Source: Rhodovastum atsumiense
GTDB taxonomy: Bacteria; Pseudomonadota; Alphaproteobacteria; Acetobacterales; Acetobacteraceae
DNA: 52,777 nt
Assembly (NCBI GenBank): GCA_026225115.1
Contig: JAMFSE010000046.1
Span: 1-52,777, forward strand
Direction: 5' to 3'
This document shows positions 43,239 to 46,511 of this stretch, piece by piece (position 1 is the first letter of the stretch; the number at the start of each line of letters is the position of its first letter). Both the position numbers and the translations under genes were made by a program. The notes under the pieces were generated by a model. That model saw only the letters and a list, made by a program, of their open reading frames with translations, was not told the DNA's origin and made no database searches.

Positions 43239-43874
43239 TCAACTGCAGTCGATGACCCGGAACGTTTCGCTGGCGTCGCCGGCGACGGCAGCACCGGGCG
43301 CCGAGCGCACCAGCCAGCCATGATAGCTGGGCGGGGCGGAGGGGTTTTGAGCGCTTTGCAAGCCCAGGAACACTGCGGCGTCGGGCACCTGGTCGGGCGG
43401 GCGCGTCATGCAGGCCAGAACATTGACCTGCAGATCGCCGACCACCGACTGGCCGCCGACCGGGATCGAGACTTCCGAAACGCTGCCGTCGATTTTATCG
43501 AGCACGCCGATTTCGGCGGTTTTTTGCGGCAGCCAGGTGTTCGGCGGAATCGGCGCGATATCCTGGATCGGCGCTGCCGGCGTGGGCTGGGTCTGGCCGG
43601 TCTGATCGCCGATATTACCGGTGGGCGGGGCAACGACATCGGGGCTGCTGCCACCGGTATCGATATCGGCCGGCGGCGTCGCCGGTACCAGGCCGGGCGG
43701 TGGCGGCGTGGCCGGCGCCGGGATCGGCTGGATGCTGGGGGGTGCGGCGACAATCGGCGGCGCCGGCGGCACGGCGATGGCGCCGTCATTGCCGTCATTC
43801 GGCAGGGTTTGGGCGAAGGCGGCGCCGGCGAGACCAAGCGCCGCGACGCAAAGGGTTGCGAACAAAAAGCGCAT
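43239..43874 (-). CDS. DUF2155 domain secreted protein
   Basis: A 211-residue exported protein with a signal peptide (MRFLFATLCVAALGLAGAAFAQ), a Pro-rich disordered linker (about 35-110), and a C-terminal DUF2155 domain: KTAEIGVLDKIDG, VNVLACMTRPPDQVPDAAVFL, YHGWLVRSAPG, and ETFRVIDCS. Two conserved Cys likely form a disulfide. The function is unknown; its constant association with mlaD and NDUFA12 suggests an envelope role. Its ATG overlaps the mlaD stop (TAATG). Confidence 0.9.
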   Translation of the reverse strand: MRFLFATLCVAALGLAGAAFAQTLPNDGNDGAIAVPPAPPIVAAPPSIQPIPAPATPPPPGLVPATPPADIDTGGSSPDVVAPPTGNIGDQTGQTQPTPAAPIQDIAPIPPNTWLPQKTAEIGVLDKIDGSVSEVSIPVGGQSVVGDLQVNVLACMTRPPDQVPDAAVFLGLQSAQNPSAPPSYHGWLVRSAPGAAVAGDASETFRVIDCS

Positions 43875-44419
43875 TATTTTGAGCCGGACGCTCCCGATAG
43901 CGAGGCCGGATTGGCAGGGGATGTTGCCGCGCCGGGCGACGCGGCCTGGCCGCCACCGCTGCCGCTACCGCCGCTCGGCTTGCCCATGTTGAAAATGAAC
44001 TGGCCTAAAAGATTTTCGAGATTGATCGCCGACTGCGTCACCTGAAAGGATTGCCCGGCCTTCAGCATGGTGTCGGAACCTCCAGGCGACAGACCGACAT
44101 AATTGCCGCCGAGCAGGCCCTCGGAGCTGATGGAGGCGCTGGTGTCTTCCGGCAGTTTGACGCCCTGGTTGATCTGCACGGCGACAATCGCGGCATAGGT
44201 CTGCGGGTCGAGATTTTCGCTGACGACATGGCCGACGGTGACGCCGCCGATTTTGACGTTGGACCCGACCGTCAGCCCGCCGATGTCGGAGAACTGCCCC
44301 TTCAGCATATAGCCGGAACCGCCGATCGCCTGGGCCTTGCCCAAAGCATAGACCAGAAATGCGGCGGCTATGGCGAGGATCACCAGCCCGGTGAGAATTT
44401 CAGGAAATTTGCGCGACAT
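43874..44419 (-). CDS. mlaD: MlaD-like phospholipid transport protein
   Basis: A 181-residue MCE-domain protein: one N-terminal membrane anchor (LTGLVILAIAAAFLVYALG), then the MCE domain (about 35-120) with FSDIGGLTVGSNVKIGGVTVG and ISSEGLLGGNYVGLSPGG. In the Mla system MlaD rings carry phospholipids between membranes. The MlaEF partners are not in this window. Co-directional with NDUFA12 upstream and DUF2155 downstream. The Gly/Ser-rich tail is variable. Confidence 0.92.
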   Translation of the reverse strand: MSRKFPEILTGLVILAIAAAFLVYALGKAQAIGGSGYMLKGQFSDIGGLTVGSNVKIGGVTVGHVVSENLDPQTYAAIVAVQINQGVKLPEDTSASISSEGLLGGNYVGLSPGGSDTMLKAGQSFQVTQSAINLENLLGQFIFNMGKPSGGSGSGGGQAASPGAATSPANPASLSGASGSK

Positions 44420-44443: not shown

Positions 44444-44863
44444 TTAAAGATCGGGCGTCCAGGATTGGTAGTCCGCCGATGCATGGGCGCGGTTGCCGCC
44501 CTCATAATCATGGCCGGCCGGGCGGTAGCTCCCCGGCGTGCCGGTGCGGTTGGGCAGATGCGGCTTTTGCCAGGCTTTGCGGCCGGTGTCGGGCAGCGGC
44601 GCGTCGCTCATATAATGCAGCCAGGAATGCCATTCGGGACCGATGGATGAGGGCTCGGCAATGCCGGGATAAACCACCCAGCGCCGGGGCCGCGCGCCGT
44701 TCAATGTCTTGCGCTGCTCGTAATAATGGTTGTCCAGGCTGTCGGTGCCGATATAGCCGCCTTTGCGGAGCGTCATCAGCACCAGGCCGGGGTTGCGCAT
44801 CAGGCCTTTTATTCCGCCAAGCTGGGCCAGTGTCACTTTGGAATGGGGCGGCGATGTGCTCAT
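44444..44863 (-). CDS. NDUFA12-like complex I accessory subunit
   Basis: A 139-residue homologue of mitochondrial complex I subunit NDUFA12 (B17.2), an accessory subunit of the alphaproteobacterial NADH:ubiquinone oxidoreductase at the matrix/peripheral arm. Visible signature: YIGTDSLDNHYYEQR, RRWVVYPG, and EPSSIGPEWHSWLHYMSD. Start ATG 44863. It begins the block NDUFA12-mlaD-DUF2155, and is divergent from the NrdJ-like gene. Confidence 0.95.
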   Translation of the reverse strand: MSTSPPHSKVTLAQLGGIKGLMRNPGLVLMTLRKGGYIGTDSLDNHYYEQRKTLNGARPRRWVVYPGIAEPSSIGPEWHSWLHYMSDAPLPDTGRKAWQKPHLPNRTGTPGSYRPAGHDYEGGNRAHASADYQSWTPDL

Positions 44864-44923
44864 GCCATCCGATATAGGTGAAGAGATGCGCGCGGTCTAT
44901 CGGCTTGATTTTTTCGATGTATC

Positions 44924-44939
44924 CACAGGATTTTGTGGG
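44924..44939. promoter_or_regulatory. Candidate NrdR-like palindrome
   Basis: CCACAGGATTTTGTGG, with perfect outer 5-bp arms, lies about 64 nt before the NrdJ-like start and in the A/T-rich divergent region. It matches a remembered NrdR box (ACAC...GTGT type) at roughly 10 of 16 positions. No convincing second box at the usual spacing. Confidence 0.3.
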
Positions 44940-45002
44940 TCAAATGAAATTTACCCACTAAATACACTTTTAACGGCAAGCATATCGACTTAGGGTAGCG
45001 GC

Positions 45003-46511
45003 ATGGCTCAGCAACGCACCGACAAATCCTGGCATGGCATCAAGCAAAGCGTATTCATCGCCCGGGCCGACCCGGACGGCGATGATGTCGCGGTGAAACT
45101 GCCGGCCGCCTGGGGCCCGGCGGCGGCGGATGGGCTGGCCTGCATGCTGCCGGGCCAAAGCGAGATCGATCTGGCGGAAGCGGCGGATGCCTGGATCGCA
45201 CCGATTGCCGAACGCGCGCTGGCGATCGGCATCTCAGCGACCATGTCCCGGGATTTGCATGCGCTGCTGGCGGCCCGCCGCGGGGCGCCCGCGGCAGGGC
45301 TGTGGCAAGGCGACGCTTTGGTGCAGCCCGGTTTCACCTTCAACCTGAATGCGTTCCTCGATGACGGGCTGGGGTTTGATGCCGCCGGCTTCGGCGATGC
45401 CGCGGAGTTGGCGGTTACCGCGCTTACCTTGGCTGCGCCTTCCGTACATTCATTATTGATAGGTTTTACCGATCTACATCTGTTCCTGACCCGGCTCGGC
45501 CTTGACTATGACAGCAGCAAAGCCCGCGACACGGCCGCCACGCTGGCGGATTACCTGACCGCGCGCGCGGATGCCGCCTCTTCCCGGCTGCTCGCCGGCG
45601 GCATGGCGCCCGGCTACCCCATCAACGCCGCGCCGCCGCTGGCATCAGAATCGGTGTTGCCGGGGCTGGCTGAGGCCGTTATCGCCGCCCGCAGCCAGCT
45701 TGGCGCTTACCGGCGGCACCGGACGCTGACCGGGTTTGCGGCAAGTTTTGAAGTCGACGCCTTGCTCGGCGCCGGCACGGTGGGTTTTCTGCCGGCGGTC
45801 TCATCCCTGGATGATGCCGGCGGCCTCAACCTCTGGGCCCACGCCCGGCTGGCGGCCTTGGGGACCAGCGCCGAAGGCGCATTGGCGGCGATGATCGCCG
45901 GCACCGACTTGCTGGCGCCGCCGCGGCTTGGCGCCGGAAAGGCGATGCATGACGCGCTGGCGCCATATGTGCACATCATGCCGGCGCGGCCGGAGATCGC
46001 GGTCTCCGCCCCGGCCAAATCCGTGCGGCAGGTGCTGCCGGCGCGGCGCTCCGGCTATACGCAGAAAGCGGCGATCGGCGGCCATAAGCTGTTCCTCTCC
46101 ACCGGCGAATACGCCAATGGACGCCTCGGCGAGATTTTCATCGCGCTGCATAAGGAAGGCTCGGCGTTTCGCGGCCTGATGGATGCGTTTGCAATCGCCG
46201 TCAGCCTGGGGCTGCAGCATGGCGTGGCCTTGGAGGATTTCGTCGAAGCCTTCACCTTCACCCGTTTCGGCGCGGCAGGCGCCGTGGAGGGCGATCCCGC
46301 GGTGCCGCAGGCAACGTCGATGCTCGACTATGTTTTCCGGAATCTGGCGGTGAATTACCTCGGCGGCCACAGCATCGCGCCGGCGCTGCCGGAAGCGGCC
46401 GATACGATCGGCGAGGGCGAAGCCGACCGCTCGCCTTTGTTGCCGCTGGATCTGCCGGCGCCGGCGCCGCGCGAACGCCGCAAAGCATTCAAGCTGGTAG
46501 GTGAGAAATGA
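45003..46511 (+). CDS. NrdJ-like (B12-dependent ribonucleotide reductase-related) probable pseudoenzyme
   Basis: A 502-residue protein whose parts resemble the alphaproteobacterial adenosylcobalamin-dependent ribonucleotide reductase. Residues 20-50 ([20 protein letters not shown]) resemble the N-terminal 'VPxxWsxxAxDxLA' segment. Residues 110-205 ([30 protein letters not shown]) resemble the middle. Residues 349-460 ([69 protein letters not shown]) resemble the C-terminal TSCPD-type domain closely. The full enzyme is about 1200 residues. Here the region carrying the radical-site and redox cysteines is absent, and the whole protein has one Cys (Cys47). Its stop overlaps the RidA start (ATGA). 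A regulatory role is a guess. Confidence 0.75.

Follow-up and report, generated by a model that had tools for sequence, protein, structure and literature searches.

What holds a gene in a genome, intact and in place, once the enzyme that it encoded has lost its catalytic centre? The question is raised by a gene of Rhodovastum atsumiense (Acetobacteraceae, Alphaproteobacteria) found in a 52,777-nucleotide stretch of DNA (assembly GCA_026225115.1, contig JAMFSE010000046.1; hereafter the window), where it lies at positions 45003-46511 of the forward strand and encodes a protein of 502 amino acids. An earlier note on this DNA had read the protein as derived from NrdJ, the adenosylcobalamin-dependent class II ribonucleotide reductase (RNR), and as kept for a function other than catalysis. 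On the sequence comparisons below, descent from nrdJ is almost certain, and a maintained non-catalytic function is very probable. The explanation that we favour, at a probability of about 50%, is that the remnant is a non-catalytic TSCPD-domain protein under NrdR control, which would act in deoxynucleotide control beside the class I RNR, by a molecular action that we infer.

Homology to NrdJ and the ancestral nrdJ site

The frame at 45003-46511 is uninterrupted, and its protein contains a single cysteine. Membership of the TSCPD family (PF12637) follows from a Pfam match at 8e-10 over amino acids 353-449 (39.3 bits, cut-off 22.8), inside a domain, also called 'IscU-like', that spans amino acids 339-456 (46017-46370, forward strand) and is about 60% identical to that of full NrdJ. 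The NCBIfam model of alphaproteobacterial NrdJ matched at 1.3e-58, with amino acids 339-474 as the best stretch and a score far under its curated cut-off. Homology to the class II RNR barrel was recovered in part, by profile searches and not at the Pfam cut-off: the Pfam barrel model gave E=0.0024 over amino acids 146-196, under its cut-off, and the window protein searched against the PDB as a single sequence found no match. A profile of 72 rows, all relatives of the window protein, matched Rhodobacter sphaeroides NrdJ (7b9p/7b9q) at about 1e-13, with its strongest stretch at amino acids 113-202 and three weak collinear stretches in addition, and Thermotoga maritima NrdJ at 1e-7 via the barrel piece; its TSCPD region had no match in the 925-residue chain of 7b9p/7b9q. 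Aligned profile to profile with 11 full NrdJ proteins, the family gave E=1.8e-66 over amino acids 112-479, in an alignment broken by large gaps in the remnant. The barrel piece spans amino acids 112-270 (45336-45812, forward strand) and begins right after the deleted active-site loop. Ahead of it, amino acids 7-104 (45021-45314, forward strand) form an NrdJ-like piece in collinear order, whose homology by itself is only suggestive (hhalign P=5.7e-4, probability 29%). The claimed derivation from NrdJ is thereby borne out beyond the TSCPD domain; of the three segments said to match, the barrel and TSCPD pieces stand and the N-terminal piece is weak. An AlphaFold (AF2) model of the protein was confident (mean predicted local distance difference test score 90.4, predicted template modelling score 0.76), with a well-folded N-terminal half and a disordered tail, and Foldseek ranked NrdJ structures first, at low template modelling scores of about 0.3.

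The window protein lacks the three catalytic cysteines and the active-site Asn and Glu, and contains neither the NPCSE loop nor the redox pair of NrdJ, in agreement with the claim that catalysis was lost. Five full NrdJ proteins and 12 dead forms were aligned (17 rows). All five residues (radical Cys, both redox Cys, Asn and Glu) occur in 5/5 full NrdJ. None of the 12 dead rows, which align loosely here, has the radical Cys, the Asn or the first redox Cys; the Glu is missing in 11/12, L253 having one in that column, and the second redox Cys likewise in 11/12, L123 having a Cys in its column. The position of the active-site loop falls inside the deleted stretch of the remnant. The single cysteine pointed out before holds for the window protein and not as a family trait, as remnant proteins have 0 to 9 cysteines and no conserved cysteine column.

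The C-terminal six-Cys zinc finger of NrdJ is also absent from the window protein and is lost in the Acetobacteraceae remnants and in the forms of families f98 and f100 described below. In Stackebrandtia nassauensis NrdJ, Cys 920, 923, 936 and 939 are proposed as zinc ligands and Cys 933/945 as the redox pair, and the zinc measured was consistent with three of these four ligands (PMC5704485). Six cysteines in that spacing occur in 33/33 full NrdJ proteins (L112-L122 and frames selected for their length and an SNPCSE motif). In the f9 forms (13 loci, 12/12 genomes read) and in those of genomes G510 and G545, the four proposed zinc positions remain and the two proposed redox positions are lost.

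Two genes on the reverse strand mark the ancestral nrdJ site: the divergent NDUFA12 gene (44444-44863) and, as second neighbour, MlaD (43874-44419). NDUFA12 is divergent within 2.4 kb upstream of nrdJ at 11/16 full-nrdJ loci, some with room for an intervening gene, and MlaD follows it in 10 of those 11. Among the 16, locus L193 was counted as lacking NDUFA12; tblastn with full NrdJ gave a short stretch only there, though a 1251-aa frame (L121) is present. Where at least 900 upstream bases were available, NDUFA12 is divergent within 1.5 kb of the remnant at 63/75 loci. As full nrdJ genes elsewhere diverge from the same NDUFA12 gene as the remnants do, the gene descends from nrdJ in place, and homology and position agree in indicating common descent with NrdJ at the ancestral locus. 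One genome, G113 (genus g78), combines a remnant in the native location with a full-length 1212-aa NrdJ elsewhere that lacks an NDUFA12 neighbour (L197 and L198); this full NrdJ groups among other full NrdJ in a tree of TSCPD domains, and its gene (L198) was gained or moved.

Selection, distribution and further dead forms

Ratios of nonsynonymous to synonymous substitution rates (dN/dS) were computed from 42 pairs of relatives with identities of 78-98.5%, some sequences being shared among pairs. Whole-gene values were 0.067-0.273, and regional medians were 0.161 (amino acids 1-110), 0.159 (111-338), 0.048 (TSCPD, the lowest) and 0.112 (tail). At the same loci, the RidA-like and NDUFA12 neighbours, whose frames were picked by loose patterns, gave 0.112 and 0.279, respectively, and the median was 0.074 for f98 forms and 0.079 for f9 forms. 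Nine matches flagged with an internal stop all proved to be intact frames. Purifying selection on the remnant across Acetobacteraceae is well supported by these sequence data, and the maintained function that had been proposed holds up.

The remnant was matched in 33/37 genomes of the same genus (in G030 over amino acids 1-101 only) and in 272/299 Acetobacteraceae genomes; among the matches listed, some of these genomes, such as G113, have a second match to full NrdJ. Class II enzymes of other kinds are also present in the family: the class II cut-off was exceeded in only 21/120 Acetobacteraceae genomes, including G017 of the same genus (597-aa frame). Across Alphaproteobacteria, 164/240 genomes match, three of the 240 being Acetobacteraceae; among the matches listed, only those three were full-span, and most others were C-termini inside frames of about 1200 aa. 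The window genome, which is 98.79% complete, encodes both class I subunits, NrdA and NrdB. Pfam found no ATP-cone in either, and no full NrdJ or class II catalytic chain (NrdJa-type partner) was detected in the genome.

Dead NrdJ forms were also found in five other alphaproteobacterial families (f98, f9, f100, f146 and f151), four of them located at the NDUFA12 site. In f98 the TSCPD domain stands alone in frames of 273-294 aa (41/43 genomes); in its sister family f154, 42/45 genomes match, and in 38 of them the match lies in a frame of 1180-1218 aa. An NrdA-type frame and no full NrdJ were found in 10/10 f98 genomes tested, and only full NrdJ in 3/3 f154 genomes. The f9 forms, mostly about 280 aa, occur in 27/32 genomes; NrdA was present in five of six tested, G658 additionally has a class II frame of 854 aa, and no PF02867 match was found in G680 (93% complete). 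The f98 and f9 forms read keep the TSCPD domain without the N-terminal/barrel half, and NDUFA12 is divergent upstream in 13/13 and 12/12 genomes read, respectively. Families f100, f146 and f151 are represented by one genome each: L252 of f100 (667-aa frame, adjacent to a RidA-like gene) and L253 of f146 (812 aa; genome G510, with another class II frame of 582 aa) both lie beside NDUFA12 and MlaD, and for L254 of f151 (918 aa) no NDUFA12 match was found nearby.

In the TSCPD tree, which has few columns and many unresolved forks, including the place of f100 (L252), Acetobacteraceae remnants form one group (support 95/94). The f98 forms group with f154 (98/56), f146 with both (99/92), f151 with full NrdJ (100/96), and f9 near full NrdJ (87/91). 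A single clade for 20 dead rows was rejected (approximately unbiased test, p-AU 0.012) with 47/91 rows kept, after full, f98, f9 and actinobacterial rows had been thinned and ten long rows dropped (L252 of f100, L167, L166, L142, L136, L131, L159, L135, L152 and L134). From this rejection, more than one independent loss of catalytic NrdJ is likely.

Predicted NrdR boxes and a proposed role of the remnant

The 200-bp upstream regions of 81 remnant loci were scored for box pairs against ACACWATATATWGTGT, which we take to be the NrdR-box consensus, with a threshold of 21 out of 32. Predicted box 1, CCACAGGATTTTGTGG (44923-44938), and predicted box 2, CCACTAAATACACTTT (44955-44970), are separated by a 16-bp spacer and together score 22 with this assumed consensus, the top of the 52.8-kb window (runner-up 19). 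Scores of at least 21 were reached at 40/81 remnant loci against 0/2710 other 200-bp segments of the same loci, and among controls by 1/1620 dinucleotide shuffles and 3/1363 overlapping segments with a GC fraction of at most 0.59. The best pair begins 80-81 bp before the start codon in 49/81 loci. A predicted pair with a score of 21 also precedes the first Met of the window genome's nrdA by 78 bp, and 8/14 full-nrdJ upstream regions reach at least 21. The locus of the dead form in G545 reaches 21 as well. The predicted pair upstream of the remnant has the spacing of 15-16 bp described for NrdR boxes (PMC12051234), and the gene is predicted to belong to the RNR regulon via NrdR.

In the favoured explanation, an Acetobacteraceae ancestor would have come to depend on class I NrdAB, the catalytic middle of NrdJ would have been deleted, and selection would have retained a folded remnant with the TSCPD domain, whose gene the predicted NrdR boxes would hold in the RNR regulon. 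The remnant would perform a second, non-catalytic job of NrdJ, namely deoxynucleotide control beside the class I RNR, through TSCPD-based assembly that is perhaps dATP/dGTP-responsive, as reported for the C-terminal region of another NrdJ, and the RidA-like protein would be a partner co-expressed with it. Intact frames kept across the family, and shrinkage that seems to have recurred in relatives, make it probable that a portion of the ancestral enzyme serves a further function not yet recognised. We lean towards the TSCPD domain as the main working part and regard a role in deoxynucleotide control as evenly balanced. Nucleotide sensing by this domain is doubtful; the idea is based on the oligomers reported for S. 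nassauensis NrdJ, whose formation requires the C-terminal region and is triggered by dATP or dGTP (PMC5704485), and the predicted NrdR boxes lend some indirect support to the nucleotide sensor of the earlier note. More speculative, and rather improbable as a whole, is the proposal that the TSCPD domain forms an assembly module of its own, one that responds to dNTPs and persists after NrdJ as an enzyme is gone. In lineages that went over to an ATP-cone-less class I RNR, dead NrdJ would then supply the deoxynucleotide-dependent activity control that is missing there, in Acetobacteraceae under NrdR control and with a RidA-like partner. A heterodimer with NrdA via the NrdJ dimer helices was thought unlikely, the stretch expected to contain these helices being deleted.

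Several observations weigh against the favoured explanation. Among TSCPD columns with full or almost full invariance in live NrdJ, 21 are relaxed in dead forms and 27 kept, and the TSCPD domain model alone found no solved structure at E<=0.001 with Foldseek. At the f9, f98, f100 and G510 loci read no clear box pair was seen (scores of 16-20 at five loci, without a background for those genomes), 41/81 Acetobacteraceae loci score below 21, and the predicted boxes lie in the region shared with the divergent NDUFA12 gene, which they may serve as well. Matches are absent or marginal in the genera g87, g91 and g121, and no match at all was found in 76/240 alphaproteobacterial genomes (some incomplete), so that the function is dispensable. 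In G105 (genus g70), a gene at the same site (L251:5704-7164) keeps the N-terminal and barrel pieces, has lost the TSCPD domain and has a RidA-like gene downstream.

The strongest competitor, tentative though possible, has the remnant neofunctionalised to work with the RidA-like protein, either in metabolite-damage control or in some other process outside deoxynucleotides, with the NrdR boxes as a relic. The RidA-like gene of the window (PF14588; 46508-46969, forward strand) overlaps the end of the remnant frame by 4 bases in an operon-like arrangement, and such a gene lies within 400 bases downstream at 74/81 distinct remnant loci (overlapping in 11), in 12/12 f9 genomes read and next to the f100 form, against 1/16 full-nrdJ loci; the coupling to RidA seen earlier is supported. 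This neighbourhood is what the RidA-partner proposal would expect, but 0/13 f98 genomes read have a RidA-like gene within 1 kb downstream, and the placement of the best NrdR-type pair at 80-81 bp before the start codon in 49/81 loci speaks against it. At the sole exception among the 16 full-nrdJ loci, in family f8, two tandem RidA-like matches stand directly behind full-length nrdJ (L191:11308-12100).

It is unlikely that the N-terminal and barrel pieces do the work with the TSCPD domain as a passenger: the g70 gene and the purifying selection on both pieces fit such a division, but constraint is strongest on the TSCPD domain, which the f98 and f9 forms read retain in the absence of the barrel. 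A new enzymatic activity in a remodelled barrel would suit the well-folded N-terminal half and its near-invariant residues, which in remnants include W10, D23, D25, R92 and W101, yet there is no conserved Cys, no known active-site motif was recognised, and the f98 and f9 forms lack that half, which makes this very unlikely. The regulator or decoy of full-length NrdJ suggested earlier, or a subunit of it, has the shared TSCPD domain and the co-occurrence in G113 in its favour; it fails here and is highly improbable, because no full NrdJ was detected in the window genome, which has class I NrdAB, or in 10/10 f98 genomes, unless one lies in the unassembled part. A decaying pseudogene would account for the missing catalytic core and for the genera in which the gene was not found, but is already contradicted by intact frames, low dN/dS across the family and a confidently predicted fold.

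Known systems and minor features

The remnant shares with the long alphaproteobacterial NrdJ (about 1200 aa) its chromosomal position, collinear pieces and a similar TSCPD domain, and differs from it in lacking the active-site loop, the catalytic cysteines and, at the C-terminus, the zinc finger that contains a redox pair. The stand-alone f9 forms are most similar to NrdJb of the split class II RNR of Pseudomonas aeruginosa (PMC4520616); NrdJb, however, works with a catalytic NrdJa, and a class II partner was detected neither in the window genome nor in G044 (f9). The TSCPD domain of the remnant corresponds to the same protein region as the IscU-like domain of class II RNR C-termini, for which, by the account in PMC9669993, no role had been reported; that account describes the domain as part of RNRs and not as a module that outlives the enzyme. 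An IscU-like fold is unconfirmed for the remnant, IscU-related chains ranking 10 and 50 (E 0.5 and 1.1) for the domain model.

No description of a catalytically dead NrdJ was found in the open-licence literature searched at title and abstract level. Catalytically dead homologues of the RNR large subunit in herpesviruses keep the RNR fold for another purpose; these are viral and class I-related. New here are the dead forms in five further families, the retention of zinc ligands with loss of the redox pair where the finger survives, and the predicted NrdR pair. With the catalytic part removed, apparently more than once, and the TSCPD domain kept, the function of this domain can be tested without confounding enzyme activity. 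The remnants are also a probable annotation trap, as searches that score the C-terminus may call a class II RNR, and hence a need for B12, where the catalytic part is absent.

The disordered tail carries two conserved motifs, PLLPLDLP followed by RRxLxLV (46434-46502, forward strand), the first matched as a strict pattern in 67/72 rows. A likeness to sliding-clamp-binding motifs was rejected, the key Gln being absent and a loose Gln pattern fitting 1/72 rows. Another genome of the same genus has a second, weak TSCPD-like match (G036:C51:8082-8327; 35% identity) in a 214-aa frame.
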